The position numbers were made by a program, and so were the translations under genes. A stretch of 41,138 nt of DNA from Syntrophobacterales bacterium (GTDB taxonomy: Bacteria > Desulfobacterota > Syntrophobacteria > Syntrophobacterales > Thermodesulforhabdaceae), in the NCBI GenBank assembly GCA_026992355.1, contig JALXAE010000262.1, positions 1-41,138 of the forward strand, read 5' to 3'. Below are positions 35,459 to 41,138 of the stretch, piece by piece (the first letter of the stretch is position 1; each line of letters opens with the position of its first letter). A model generated the notes under the pieces. It was not told where the DNA came from, did no database searches, and was given only the letters and a program-made list of their open reading frames with translations.

Positions 35459-36919
35459 ATGGTTGGAATTGCTGCCTTTGGTGCTTATCTGCCACGATTT
35501 CGCATAAAACGAAAAGAAATTCTGGAAGCTATGGCTTGGATAAACCCGTCTTTGTGGAGCCTATCAAGGGGCGAAAAGGCTGTGGCAAATTATGATGAAG
35601 ATGCCATAACTCTTGCCGTTTCTGCGATAAGGAATATGTCCCATGAAAGTCTAGATAACTTCCTAAAACAAAAGGAAAAGGTTTTATTTGTTGCCTCTAC
35701 GACCTTTCCCTATGCTGAAAGATTGAACAGCGCAATCGTTTCAGAAGCTATTGAATGTGCTGAAGCAGTCGAGACCGCTGATTTTTCGGGATCTTCCAGG
35801 GCATCTACGTCCGCTCTAATTGCAGCGCTTAAACAGGCTGCATCTACCGAATCCTTTTCCGCCATAGTCGCATCGGGAGAAGTCCGAAAAGCAAAGCCTG
35901 GGAGTCTCGATGAAGCTTACATTGGAGATGGTGGATGCGCTTTAATGATCGGAACAAAAAACGTAATAGCAGCCTATTGTTCCAGTTTGTCCTTCTCCTT
36001 TGATTTTCCTTCAGACATCAGGTCGTCATCGGAACCTTTCCGTCGATCATGGGAAGAACGATGGATAAAAGATGAAGGTTACAAAAAACATATTCCCTTT
36101 GCAATTGATGCCTACCTGAGGAAAAATGGATTTTTTCCGGAAAACTTTCGTTATGTTATCTATCCCTGTCGTTACGAAAGAGAACACAAAGCTATTGCCC
36201 GAATGCTCCGTCTTCGGGAAGAACAGGTTGTTCCGTCTTTGATCAATAAAATAGGAGATACTGGTTCTGTCCACCCTTTGATTATGCTTTGTTACGCCCT
36301 TGAACGTTCATCCCCCGGCGATCAAATCCTTCTTGTTGGTTATGGAAATGGAGTCGATGTAATTCATTTTGAGGTTTCCCCCGAGATAAAGAATTACATT
36401 CCACGGGTATCCTTTGAAAAACTTTTGGAAATAAACGCTCCCATTAGTTACGAAAAGATGGTTTCATTTAGAGAAATTATGCCTGTCGAAAAGGGAATTC
36501 GAGGGGAGTTTCAGCCTGAAACTCCAATGTCCGTTGTTTGGCGAAACAGAAAAGCAATTTTAGGGCTGGTAGGAAGCAAGTGTCGCAAATGTGGTTTGCC
36601 TCAGTATCCTCCCCAAAAGGTTTGTGTAAATCCCCATTGCCTTTCTGCTGGAGAAATGGAACCTTACTCCTTTTCGAGAAAATCTGCAAAAATTTTTAGC
36701 TATACTGGAGATAATCTCGCCTTCTCTTTAGATCCACCCCAGATTTACGGTATTGTAGATTTTGAAGATGGCGGAAGAATGATGCTTGACTTTACAGATT
36801 GCAAACTGGAGGAACTTAAAGTCGGTATGGAAGTGGAGCTTACTTTCCGTCGCAAATATCATGATGCGCATCGAGGCATTCACACTTATTTCTGGAAGGC
36901 AACACCTCTTAGGACCTGA
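35459..36919 (+). CDS. HMG-CoA-synthase-like protein fused to DUF35 (Zn-ribbon OB-fold)
   Basis: A 486-residue fusion. Residues 1-350 follow the thiolase-superfamily HMG-CoA synthase/KAS III fold (IAAFGAYLPRFRI, SAIVSEAIE, YIGDGGCALMIG, GDTGSVHPLIML). Residues about 355-485 form a DUF35 module with a zinc ribbon (C375-x2-C378...C389-x4-C394) and an OB-fold. At the nucleophile position, where archaeal HMG-CoA synthases read like EFACKAGT, this protein reads ADFSGSSRAST with no Cys (about 107-117). Archaeal thiolase/HMGCS/DUF35 form a substrate-channelling complex; here a thiolase gene follows after 22 nt. GGGAGGG precedes the ATG. Confidence 0.8.
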   Translation: MVGIAAFGAYLPRFRIKRKEILEAMAWINPSLWSLSRGEKAVANYDEDAITLAVSAIRNMSHESLDNFLKQKEKVLFVASTTFPYAERLNSAIVSEAIECAEAVETADFSGSSRASTSALIAALKQAASTESFSAIVASGEVRKAKPGSLDEAYIGDGGCALMIGTKNVIAAYCSSLSFSFDFPSDIRSSSEPFRRSWEERWIKDEGYKKHIPFAIDAYLRKNGFFPENFRYVIYPCRYEREHKAIARMLRLREEQVVPSLINKIGDTGSVHPLIMLCYALERSSPGDQILLVGYGNGVDVIHFEVSPEIKNYIPRVSFEKLLEINAPISYEKMVSFREIMPVEKGIRGEFQPETPMSVVWRNRKAILGLVGSKCRKCGLPQYPPQKVCVNPHCLSAGEMEPYSFSRKSAKIFSYTGDNLAFSLDPPQIYGIVDFEDGGRMMLDFTDCKLEELKVGMEVELTFRRKYHDAHRGIHTYFWKATPLRT

Positions 36920-36941: not shown

Positions 36942-38138
36942 ATGGCAACTGGAATTAAAGACAAAGTAGCCATAGTAGGAATGGGGTGTACTCGGTTCGG
37001 CGAAAGGTGGGATGCAAGTGCTGAAGATCTTATGGTTGAAGCTTTCATTGAAGCGGTTGAAGACGCCGGAATTGAACCGAAAGAAATAGAGGGTGCCTGG
37101 CTGGGTACATGCTTCGAAGAAATACATGTAGGAAAGAGTGGTATCCCTCTTTCGCAAACGCTTAAGCTTCAAAACATTCCTGTAACCAGGGTTGAAAACT
37201 TTTGTGCAACAGGAACGGAAGCCTTCCGTGCAGCTGCTTACGCCGTTGCCTCCGGCGCCTGTCGTATAGCCCTCGCCCTGGGGGTAGAAAAACTCAAAGA
37301 TACCGGTTACGGGGGGCTGCCGGACTTTGGAACGGTCATGGGAACACTTAACAGGTTTATACTACCCAACTTCACGGCTCCGGGTGGATTTGCACTTATG
37401 GCAACACGATATTTTGCTAAGTACAATATTTCTCCAGAAGAAGGCAAAATGGCTCTTGCAAAAATATCCTGCAAAAGCCACCGCTGCGGTGCTCTGAATC
37501 CGAAAGCCCATTTACGCAAAGAAATAACGGAAGAACAGGTTTTAAAAGCACCTATTATTGCATGGCCTCTTGGACTTTTCGATTGTTGTGGAGTGAGTGA
37601 TGGAGCGGCGGCAGCTATAATAACAACCCCAGATGTAGCAAGGGGACTGCGTAAGGATTTTGTCAAGGTAAAAGCTCTCCAAGTAGCGTGCACATCGGGA
37701 GAAGAAATGTTCACCCAAAACTGGGATGGAACATATCTCAAGACTACGACTCAAGCTGCTATAAGAGCTTATCAAGAAGCAGATGTCAAAAATCCCCGTG
37801 AAGAACTCAGTCTAATCGAAGTACATGATTGTTTTTCCATTACGGAACTGGTGACTTATGAAGATCTTCAGATTTCTGAACGAGGTAAAGCCATAAGGGA
37901 TATAAACGATGGTTTCTTTGAACTCACCGGAAACATTCCATGCCAATCTGATGGAGGCTTGAAGTGTTTCGGTCATCCCATAGGAGCCTCTGGGCTGCGC
38001 ATGATTTATGAAGTCTACAAACAACTCCAGCATAAGGCTGGAGAAAGGCAAATACAAGATCCTCACCTGGGTCTTACCCATAATCTTGGCGGCATCCCTT
38101 CTTTCAGCGTTTGTAGTATTGCTATATTTGGAATTTAA
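36942..38138 (+). CDS. Thiolase (SCP-x/acetyl-CoA acetyltransferase type)
   Basis: A 398-residue thiolase with Cys88 (ENFCATGTEA) as acyl nucleophile, the HDCFS segment (about 293) and the C-terminal GHPIGASG His motif; the final segment (THNLGGIPSFSVCSIAIFGI) has the second Cys-like position. This is the SCP-x-like subgroup found with DUF35 proteins. It probably cleaves 3-ketoacyl-CoA. GGAGG lies 7 nt upstream of the ATG. The nuclease gene separates it from the SDR and hydratase genes. Confidence 0.9.
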   Translation: MATGIKDKVAIVGMGCTRFGERWDASAEDLMVEAFIEAVEDAGIEPKEIEGAWLGTCFEEIHVGKSGIPLSQTLKLQNIPVTRVENFCATGTEAFRAAAYAVASGACRIALALGVEKLKDTGYGGLPDFGTVMGTLNRFILPNFTAPGGFALMATRYFAKYNISPEEGKMALAKISCKSHRCGALNPKAHLRKEITEEQVLKAPIIAWPLGLFDCCGVSDGAAAAIITTPDVARGLRKDFVKVKALQVACTSGEEMFTQNWDGTYLKTTTQAAIRAYQEADVKNPREELSLIEVHDCFSITELVTYEDLQISERGKAIRDINDGFFELTGNIPCQSDGGLKCFGHPIGASGLRMIYEVYKQLQHKAGERQIQDPHLGLTHNLGGIPSFSVCSIAIFGI

Positions 38139-38162
38139 AAATGTTTTTTTATGGTCAGAAGA

Positions 38163-39710
38163 ATGAAGAAATTGCCCATTGGCATTCAGAACATTAGAGA
38201 AATTATAGAAGAAAACTACGTTTATGTTGATAAAACCCCTTTTGCCTACAGATTGATTACCGAAAGGAAGTACTATTTTCTTTCTCGTCCTCGAAGGTTT
38301 GGAAAGAGTCTTTTTTTGGATACTCTATCTGAGATTTTCAAGGGAAGCAGAGAGCTTTTTGAGGGGCTTTATATCTATGGCCGCTATGACTTTAAGCCCT
38401 ATCCTGTGATTCGCATAAGCTTTGGTAGTGGTGATTATGGGATACTTGAGAGTATATCCAAGGAAATTATCTATCTCTTGAAATGGAACGCTGAGAAGCT
38501 TGGGGTTAGCTGCACTGATCTTGATGATGCAAAGATTTGCTTCAAGGAGCTTATTGAGAAAACCTATGACAAGTTTTCCGAGAAGGTAGTTATTCTGGTT
38601 GATGAATATGACAAACCAATTCTTGACAACATACGGGACAGCGAGAAGGCTCGTTATGCTCGGGATATTTTGAAAAATCTCTATTCTGTAATAAAGGATA
38701 TGGATGCCTATGTTAGGTTTGTATTTATCACCGGGGTTTCCAAGTTTTCCAAGCTGAGTCTTTTTAGTGGGCTAAATAATCTTGAAGACATCACTGTGGA
38801 TTCCCGTTATGCGGAGATATGTGGTTATACTCACAGGGATTTAGAAACGGTTTTTTCGGAGCATCTTAAGGGTGCGGATCTTGAGAAGGTACGGCTCTGG
38901 TATAATGGTTACAATTATTTTGGCGAAAAGCTTTACAATCCCTTTGATATTCTTCTTTTTATTGCCAAGGGTTTTGAATTCAGAAATTACTGGTGGAGTA
39001 CAGGCAATCCTTCTTTTTTGATAGATAAGCTTCGGGAGGAGAACTATTACATTCCGGAGCTTGAGGGAGCGGAAATAGCCGAGGAAGCCCTTGACGCCTT
39101 TGATGTGGATTACATAGATGTTCTGGCCCTTTTCTGGCAAACGGGGTATTTGACCTTCAAGGACAAACGAGTGAATCGATTCGGGAGAAATGTCTACCGA
39201 CTTACCATACCCAACCTCGAGATCCGTTTTTCTTTGAATGAGCTCTTTGTGGATTATCTTACCAATCAGAGACACCAGAAGTACCGTTTAAAGGACAAAC
39301 TAGATGATGCCCTTTACAATGGAGATTTTCCAACATTTATAGAGGCGTTGCAATCCATTTTCGCATCCATTCCTTATCACAACTATGCCAACAATATTAT
39401 TTCCCAATACGAGGGTTACTACAGCTCAGTGGTTTATGTGTACCTAGCTGCCCTCGGGTATGAAGTAATACCCGAAGATACGACAAATAGAGGGCGAATA
39501 GACCTTACAATCAAACTTCCAGATAAGATAGTAATTGTGGAATTCAAGGTTGATAGTTCTGAACCACCTCTTAAGCAGGTTTTTGAAAGGAATTACGCAG
39601 ACAAGTATAAGGCTGAGGGAAAGCCTATCTATCTTTTGGGAATAGAGTTTGACAGTTCGGAACGTAACATTGTCGCATGGGAGCTTAAGGAACTAGATAA
39701 TCCTAAATAG
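38163..39710 (+). CDS. AAA-ATPase-like / PD-(D/E)XK nuclease protein
   Basis: About 515 residues of a widespread bacterial family (AAA-ATPase_like plus PDDEXK_9). The start MKKLPIGIQNIREIIEENY matches the family's conserved opening; Walker A is RPRRFGKSLF, Walker B VVILVDEYDKP, and the C-terminal nuclease motif runs GRIDLTI...IVIVEFKVD (D then E-x-K). I chose the ATG at 38163, though an ATG at 38151 is also possible. Its codon use (many AAG, GAG, GGG) differs from the A-rich neighbours. It splits an acyl-CoA operon. The members are often multicopy and of unknown role, possibly selfish or defence-linked; no terminal repeats are seen. Confidence 0.9.
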   Translation: MKKLPIGIQNIREIIEENYVYVDKTPFAYRLITERKYYFLSRPRRFGKSLFLDTLSEIFKGSRELFEGLYIYGRYDFKPYPVIRISFGSGDYGILESISKEIIYLLKWNAEKLGVSCTDLDDAKICFKELIEKTYDKFSEKVVILVDEYDKPILDNIRDSEKARYARDILKNLYSVIKDMDAYVRFVFITGVSKFSKLSLFSGLNNLEDITVDSRYAEICGYTHRDLETVFSEHLKGADLEKVRLWYNGYNYFGEKLYNPFDILLFIAKGFEFRNYWWSTGNPSFLIDKLREENYYIPELEGAEIAEEALDAFDVDYIDVLALFWQTGYLTFKDKRVNRFGRNVYRLTIPNLEIRFSLNELFVDYLTNQRHQKYRLKDKLDDALYNGDFPTFIEALQSIFASIPYHNYANNIISQYEGYYSSVVYVYLAALGYEVIPEDTTNRGRIDLTIKLPDKIVIVEFKVDSSEPPLKQVFERNYADKYKAEGKPIYLLGIEFDSSERNIVAWELKELDNPK

Positions 39711-39721
39711 GAGGGTCCAAT

Positions 39722-40546
39722 ATGGAGAAAATGCTTAAAGATAGGGTATGTTTAATAACCGGTGCAGGAAGGGGCATAGGAAAGGCAACGGCTCTTCTAT
39801 TTGCCAAAGAAGGAGCAAAACTAGTTTTAAGCGATCTTGATGAAGAACCCCTAACTCAGGCGGCAAATGAAGCAAAGCAATTGGGTGCGGATGTAGTCTA
39901 TATTACAGGAGATGTCACGGCTGATGGATTTGCAGAGGCCTTTGTAAAAAAGGCCGTAGATAACTTTGGGCCGGACATTCACGTTATCGTCAATAATGCA
40001 GGCTATACCTGGGACGGCGTTGTTCACAAGATGACCGATGAGCAATGGGAAGCTATGCTTAAAGTCCACTGCACGGCACCCTTTAGGATAGTGCGAGCCG
40101 CAGCACCTTACATACGGGAAAATGCAAAAAAAGAAAAAGCGGCAGGTCAGGTTGTTATGAGGAAGATAATAAACGTGAGTTCTATTGCTGGAACGGACGG
40201 AAACGCTGGACAGGCAAATTACTCCACTGCCAAAGCAGGTGTACTTGGATTTACAAAAACTCTCGCCAAAGAATGGGGTCCTCTGAATGTCAATGTAAAC
40301 GCCGTCGCTTTCGGCTGGATTGAAACAAGGCTTACTCAAGAAAAAACCGATGAAACCGTAATTGAAAAGAACGGAAAAAAGATTCCGATCGGAGTCCCCA
40401 AAGAATTCTTAAATATATTTCGCCATATGATTCCCCTCGGAAGACCAGGATCTCCAGACGAAGCAGCCCGTGTAATTTTATTCCTTGCATCTCCCTTATC
40501 CGATTATGTTTCCGGACAGGTTATTAAGGTAACAGGTGGGTGGTAA
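39722..40546 (+). CDS. SDR-family 3-hydroxyacyl-CoA dehydrogenase (FabG / MFE-2 type)
   Basis: A 274-residue short-chain dehydrogenase: GAGRGIG (about 14-20), NNAG, and the catalytic Ser (NVSSIAG), Tyr and Lys (YSTAK). The long insertion and C-terminus (GQVIKVTGGW) are usual for FabG. It overlaps functionally with the (R)-3-hydroxyacyl-CoA dehydrogenase of MFE-2, because the adjacent hydratase is MFE-2-like. AGGAGGG precedes the ATG. NAD or NADP preference: the acidic residue after the first fold (SDLD) suggests NAD(H). Confidence 0.85.
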   Translation: MEKMLKDRVCLITGAGRGIGKATALLFAKEGAKLVLSDLDEEPLTQAANEAKQLGADVVYITGDVTADGFAEAFVKKAVDNFGPDIHVIVNNAGYTWDGVVHKMTDEQWEAMLKVHCTAPFRIVRAAAPYIRENAKKEKAAGQVVMRKIINVSSIAGTDGNAGQANYSTAKAGVLGFTKTLAKEWGPLNVNVNAVAFGWIETRLTQEKTDETVIEKNGKKIPIGVPKEFLNIFRHMIPLGRPGSPDEAARVILFLASPLSDYVSGQVIKVTGGW

Positions 40547-40568: not shown

Positions 40569-41138
40569 ATGATACAACTTGATATGGTGGGCAAAACTTT
40601 AGGCCCCTATGAATATAACTACACATGGAAAGATGTAATTCTTTACCATCTGGGTATTGGCGCAAAAGCTAATCAATTAAAATATGTGTATGAAAACGCA
40701 AAAGAAGGATTGGTAGTCTGCCCATCCTTTGCTGTAATTCCTGCCTTTAAGCCCTTTGTTGATGCTCTAAAACTATTAAAAGTTGACCTGAAAACGGTAC
40801 TTCATGGCGAAGAATGGGTTAATCTTTACGGAAGCTTACCGACCAGCGGGAAACTTTTAACCAATGTAACCATTTCGGGAATATATGATAAGAGAAAGGC
40901 TGCTCTTATTGTTTTAAAAACCGAGACCTCAAATGAAAGTGGAATAAAGCTTTTTGACACAGAAGCTGTTCTTTACTGTCGAGGGCTCGGAGGATGGGGA
41001 GGAGATCCCGGACCGAAAAGAAAGGTCTATCGTCCCCCTGAAAACATGGAACCCGATTTTTCCGTGGAAGAACAAACGGCGGATAATCAAGCGGCTCTAT
41101 ACAGGCTTTCGGGAGATGTAAATCCCTTGCACATTGAT
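40569..41138 (+). CDS. MaoC-family hydratase 2 (MFE-2-type enoyl-CoA hydratase), partial
   Basis: The first 190 residues of a gene cut by the right edge. The opening half reads DVILYHLGIGAKANQLKYVY, then CPSFAVIPAF, LHGEEW and LPTSGKLLTNVTISG, which closely follow the N-terminal hot-dog domain of peroxisomal MFE-2 hydratase 2. The catalytic hot-dog starts with YRLSGDVNPLHID, the conserved hydratase-2 motif. It would convert trans-2-enoyl-CoA to (R)-3-hydroxyacyl-CoA, feeding the SDR encoded 22 nt upstream. GTGAGG precedes the ATG. Confidence 0.9.
   Translation, partial: MIQLDMVGKTLGPYEYNYTWKDVILYHLGIGAKANQLKYVYENAKEGLVVCPSFAVIPAFKPFVDALKLLKVDLKTVLHGEEWVNLYGSLPTSGKLLTNVTISGIYDKRKAALIVLKTETSNESGIKLFDTEAVLYCRGLGGWGGDPGPKRKVYRPPENMEPDFSVEEQTADNQAALYRLSGDVNPLHID

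Follow-up and report, generated by a model that had tools for sequence, protein, structure and literature searches.

A predicted structural thiolase subunit made of an HMG-CoA-synthase-like domain fused to DUF35

Described complexes that join thiolases to DUF35 proteins

Complexes in which a thiolase, an HMG-CoA-synthase-like (HMGCS-like) protein and a DUF35 protein come together are already known as a type. In PhlABC of Pseudomonas protegens (PpATase; 5M3K, 5MG5), an inert HMGCS-like subunit, PhlA, is bridged by the DUF35 subunit PhlB to the thiolase-family subunit PhlC, which carries Cys88. PhlA lacks the catalytic Cys and Glu (Gly115/Cys83), only residues of PhlC act on the substrate, and activity is seen only when all three subunits are co-expressed (PMC6392133). 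The acetoacetyl-CoA thiolase/HMGCS/DUF35 complex of the archaeon M. thermolithotrophicus (6ESQ, 6ET9) contains the same three domains, and in both systems DUF35 links two condensing-enzyme-like dimers (PMC12329534). MucABC from Streptococcus macacae (9VBO, 9VBT) likewise consists of a Cys-less HMGCS-like, a DUF35-like and a thiolase-like subunit. Other systems share only part of this arrangement: benzoylsuccinyl-CoA thiolase BbsAB from Geobacter (7PXP) pairs a DUF35 subunit with an SCP2-type beta-oxidation thiolase, and in the steroid side-chain aldolases Shy-Sal and ChsH2-Ltp2 a DUF35 fused to a pathway domain (MaoC) binds the thiolase-like enzyme (PMC11321319, PMC12329534). In Shy-Sal the DUF35 domain alone is enough for this binding (PMC11321319).

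The window analyzed here, a stretch of 41,138 nucleotides from a Syntrophobacterales bacterium (contig JALXAE010000262.1), encodes a single protein in which an HMGCS-like domain is fused to DUF35, and a thiolase gene begins 22 bp 3' of it. We consider it highly probable that this fusion protein is an inert HMGCS-like domain plus a DUF35, in effect PhlA and PhlB in one chain, and that it forms a predicted two-gene thiolase complex with its neighbor. From the precedents of PhlABC, the archaeal complex and Shy-Sal, we infer that the PhlA-like and PhlB-like parts brace the thiolase from within one chain. Each of these systems nevertheless differs from the locus. PhlA and PhlB are separate proteins, PhlABC carries out the C-acylation of phloroglucinols without CoA, and PhlA sits on another branch of the tree; the archaeal HMGCS is active (Glu82, Cys114), and its complex is built from separate chains and belongs to the mevalonate pathway; MucABC also consists of separate chains and acetylates tetramates. 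BbsAB has no HMGCS-like domain, while Shy-Sal and ChsH2-Ltp2 carry MaoC as the domain fused to DUF35 and have an aldolase as their thiolase-like enzyme. The complex type is thus known, but the fused, widespread variant is new: we found no study of a fused HMGCS-DUF35 family in the literature searched, and plasmid records annotate its members only as 'OB-fold domain-containing protein' or 'synthase III C-terminal domain'.

The fusion protein and its former active site

The open reading frame of the fusion protein runs on the plus strand from an ATG at exactly 35459 to a stop at 36919 and encodes 486 amino acids; no second homologue was found in the same genome. Residues 1 to about 340 (35459-36478, plus strand) form an HMGCS-like domain of the KAS III fold, as identified by Pfam, NCBIfam, PDB sequence matching, AlphaFold2/Foldseek and a triad census, and we predict this domain to be a non-catalytic, homodimer-forming scaffold. 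Three Pfam models match above cut-off: ACP_syn_III_C (220-299), zf-ChsH2 (370-397; 36566-36649, plus strand) and OB_ChsH2_C (409-464; 36683-36850, plus strand). The last two make up a DUF35, a four-Cys zinc ribbon followed by an OB fold, which we predict to bridge to the thiolase and to cover it on the CoA side. The ribbon had been described as intact on first reading, and indeed Cys375, Cys378, Cys389 and Cys394 are all present and are kept in 159-160 of 160 homologues. In a PDB sequence search the DUF35 half matches the DUF35 chain of the archaeal complex (6ESQ_E, E 1e-15); in the NCBIfam search it matches the BbsA model weakly. The neighboring thiolase clearly matches its BbsAB counterpart.

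The best PDB sequence match to the fusion protein is PhlA (5M3K, E 7e-33), with the archaeal HMGCS (6ESQ) also matched. An AlphaFold2 model built with 53 homologues (pLDDT 91.6, pTM 0.93) has as its best Foldseek matches in the PDB the 6ESQ HMGCS (6ESQ_J, E 3e-28, TM 0.89 by target), PhlA in second place, the PhlA of CsATase and MucABC subunits (ranks 8-10), with TM 0.83-0.91 by target length. Every stand-alone HMG-CoA synthase ranks below these HMGCS-like subunits of DUF35/thiolase complexes.

The sequence-only reading had proposed that the HMGCS-like domain, whose expected Cys region reads ADFSGSSRAST (residues 107-117), lacks its nucleophile. This is borne out, but it understated the loss. 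Glu82, Cys114 and the catalytic His of M. thermolithotrophicus HMGCS (6ESQ) align with T81, S113 and P236 of the fusion protein, such that the entire triad is missing and not Cys alone. The loss is family-wide: our triad and neighbor census covers 160 full-length fusions, drawn from archaea and several bacterial phyla, and not one of them retains Glu, Cys or His at the respective triad column, so that the alignment check for an active-site Cys places none there. The Glu column holds Thr in 138/160 and the His column Pro in 117/160, while the Cys column is most commonly Leu (81) and otherwise mostly Thr, Ile, Gln or Val. These columns are validated by the 42 active-type standalone homologues used as a control, M. 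thermolithotrophicus HMGCS included, all of which keep Glu, Cys and His at the same positions. Sequence error or recent decay of a single gene can be ruled out, as the same loss occurs in 160 homologues and the frame is full-length.

Could the protein be a true, if divergent, HMG-CoA synthase that serves a mevalonate pathway? Its best NCBIfam matches are archaeal HMG-CoA synthase models, which align with residues 1-340, and archaeal HMGCS likewise works with a thiolase and DUF35. The scores, however, fall below the curated cut-offs (190 vs 244 and 148.8 vs 353 bits, with a further HMG-CoA synthase model at 25.8 vs 360), and the triad is wholly absent. Moreover, the source genome encodes DXP reductoisomerase, a marker of the DXP pathway, and no HMG-CoA reductase was found in it, which makes a mevalonate role unlikely. 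On these grounds we reject a true synthase, to which we give almost no credence. The lost triad, taken together with a near-constant and intact thiolase neighbor, instead makes a structural thiolase subunit the most likely identity, in agreement with the earlier proposal of a thiolase scaffold acting through DUF35, for which the fold match and inert PhlA, the nearest precedent, also speak.

A second possibility is that the HMGCS-like domain is another enzyme of the complex that works through a different residue, either Cys237 or an acid/base such as D108, D157, E199 or R201. The former cleft does retain conserved residues, with W198, E199, R201, D157 and D108 conserved at 94-99% within the fused family, and E199 and D157 resemble neither active HMGCS nor PhlA. 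Two substitute nucleophiles were considered and rejected: position 112, one before the catalytic column, is Cys in 22/160 and Ser in the window protein, and Cys237, the best candidate, which lies beside the lost His, is present in 123/160 and hence not invariant. Indeed, we found no invariant Cys, Ser or Thr in the HMGCS-like domain of the 160 fusions, which makes covalent catalysis there unlikely; the catalytic Cys column varies freely between Leu, Ile, Val, Gln and Thr, and the thiolase evolves more slowly than this domain. Catalysis by another residue, which had been raised as an option beside the scaffold, is therefore improbable in our judgment. A pseudo-active cleft with conserved residues of its own may nonetheless do more than brace the complex. 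We tentatively entertain, as a minority view, that the former HMGCS active site was rebuilt as a conserved second pocket (W198, E199, R201, D157, D108), which would serve the thiolase by binding or gating the long acyl chain or CoA; the family would then be a dedicated two-pocket beta-oxidation thiolase with a dead condensing enzyme as its specificity subunit.

The thiolase partner and its operon

The adjacent thiolase seen on first reading is confirmed at 36942-38138 on the plus strand. It is an SCP2-type thiolase by Pfam, NCBIfam and PDB matches and the predicted catalytic subunit, with the motifs Cys, HDCF and GHPxGAxG present and all four catalytic residues kept (Cys88, His295-Asp-Cys297-Phe, Gly-His345-Pro). 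Its association with the fusion protein is near constant: in 152/160 fusions a thiolase homologue follows on the same strand, no more than 300 bp downstream, and the remaining eight comprise two at contig edges, two with a thiolase further downstream and four without one in the stretch examined. The two frames are at most 30 nt apart in 136 of 175 cases, and Cys88, His295, Cys297 and His345 are kept in every one of 177 neighboring thiolases. In all 151 pairs compared, the thiolase is more conserved than its fusion partner (65.7 vs 43.5% identity to the window proteins). Evolutionary distances of the fusion protein and the thiolase are correlated (r = 0.88), and the DUF35 half tracks the thiolase (0.90) more closely than it tracks its own HMGCS-like half (0.78), although shared ancestry feeds such correlations, which are thus supportive only.

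In one relative (56% and 84% identical to the two window proteins), the fusion and thiolase genes share a reading frame and are separated by a single TAA. We modeled an artificial joined chain in which this TAA is read as a Ser linker, the natural proteins being separate; AlphaFold2 gave pLDDT 87.4 and pTM 0.74 over 890 residues, with no confident interface, against roughly 0.5-0.6 that we would estimate for random halves, which mildly favors a defined arrangement. No natural single-chain HMGCS-DUF35-thiolase fusion was found among the homologues. Proteins of about 915 amino acids (L031-L036, L038, L167 and others) were ruled out as thiolase fusions: their extra domains are SDR and SCP2, giving HMGCS-like, DUF35, SDR and SCP2 in one chain beside a separate thiolase, an MFE-2-like arrangement (Pfam scan run on L031, L034 and L036). 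Another homologue (L037:3885-5018) has an open N-terminal stretch of 378 amino acids before the fusion protein, either a real domain or a chance open frame, which has no match in Pfam or the PDB.

Downstream of the thiolase, the window contains an SDR at 39722-40546 (plus strand; Pfam adh_short_C2), probably a 3-hydroxyacyl-CoA dehydrogenase of the same module, and an MFE-2-type hydratase 2/MaoC at 40569-41138 (plus strand; Pfam MFE-2_hydrat-2_N) that is cut by the contig end. The nearest relative (L071) has the order fusion protein, thiolase, SDR, complete MaoC, acyl-CoA ligase and acyl-CoA dehydrogenase; the SDR is placed in the same order there and in Desulfosarcina alkanivorans (L136), and a similar gene set occurs in D. 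alkanivorans, a Bacteroidota bin, and Sphingomonas and Variovorax plasmids. Neither an acyl-CoA dehydrogenase nor a ligase is present in the part of the operon that the window covers. Between the thiolase and the SDR lies a PF09820 AAA-ATPase-like/PDDEXK_9 gene (38151-39710, plus strand; Pfam). It is absent from the L071 operon and has an 88% identical copy elsewhere in the source genome (C310), which points to the insertion of a mobile or duplicating gene into the operon.

The combination of MaoC hydratase 2, SDR and SCP2-type thiolase is reminiscent of the peroxisomal MFE-2/SCPx branch of beta-oxidation, through which branched and bulky acyl-CoAs are processed. The most likely reaction is thus the thiolytic cleavage of 3-ketoacyl-CoA in an MFE-2-like beta-oxidation route, with direction and substrate read from the neighboring genes only; the substrates are perhaps branched or bulky acyl-CoAs. 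Within such a complex the HMGCS-like part would dimerize and serve as scaffold and cavity wall, DUF35 would bridge to the thiolase and help hold or cover CoA, and the chemistry would be done by the thiolase alone through Cys88. It is also possible, at odds somewhat better than those of catalysis by another residue in the HMGCS-like domain yet still low, that the complex is a PhlABC-like C-acyltransferase or a biosynthetic Claisen enzyme and not a degradative thiolase, with the fusion protein remaining an inert subunit. Thiolases are reversible, and the nearest characterized relatives by sequence and fold, PhlA and MucA, are acyltransferase subunits. But in the tree PhlA and MucA fall outside the fused family, the thiolase itself is closest in sequence to acetoacetyl-CoA thiolases and SCP2-thiolases, well ahead of PhlC, and the genes neighboring its relatives (acyl-CoA dehydrogenases, ligases, MaoC hydratases and SDRs) are a beta-oxidation set.

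A widespread family of predicted thiolase subunits

Our searches covered 198 genomes from the same phylum, 68 of them positive, as well as 60 close relatives, ten genomes of other lineages, an archaeal set, a Chloroflexota set, plasmid records and a named genome collection, the last of which yielded at least 543 confirmed relatives, 80 of which were kept. Record titles among the matches listed include Desulfobacterota, Chloroflexi, Spirochaetes, Nitrospirae, Bacillota, Actinomycetota and archaeal bins. In an unrooted tree, in which the long branches L170, L213, L173 and MucA are unsure in placement, a branch with SH-aLRT 95 separates the triad-less fused family from both active HMGCS and PhlA/MucA, and the family does not group with PhlA. 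Two standalone HMGCS-like proteins without the triad (L173, L177; about 366-369 amino acids) also occur, in an archaeal and a Chloroflexota bin, and are possible unfused PhlA/MucA relatives. Some genomes (G189, G075, G077, G248) have 5 to 8 paralogous matches to the fusion protein each, hinting at substrate-specialized thiolase complexes.

The most likely role of the family, in fat-degradation operons of many bacteria and some archaea, is that of the structural partner in a thiolase of two subunits. With at least 543 candidate relatives it is a large family, hydrocarbon and fatty-acid degraders are among its hosts, and model matches alone would name its members HMG-CoA synthases. If our reading is true, anaerobes and archaea contain many predicted HMG-CoA synthases that are in fact subunits of thiolases, and pathway reconstructions that now contain false mevalonate or HMG-CoA steps would change. 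The fusion protein and its thiolase also offer a compact two-gene system in which to test the role of dead subunits in DUF35 complexes.
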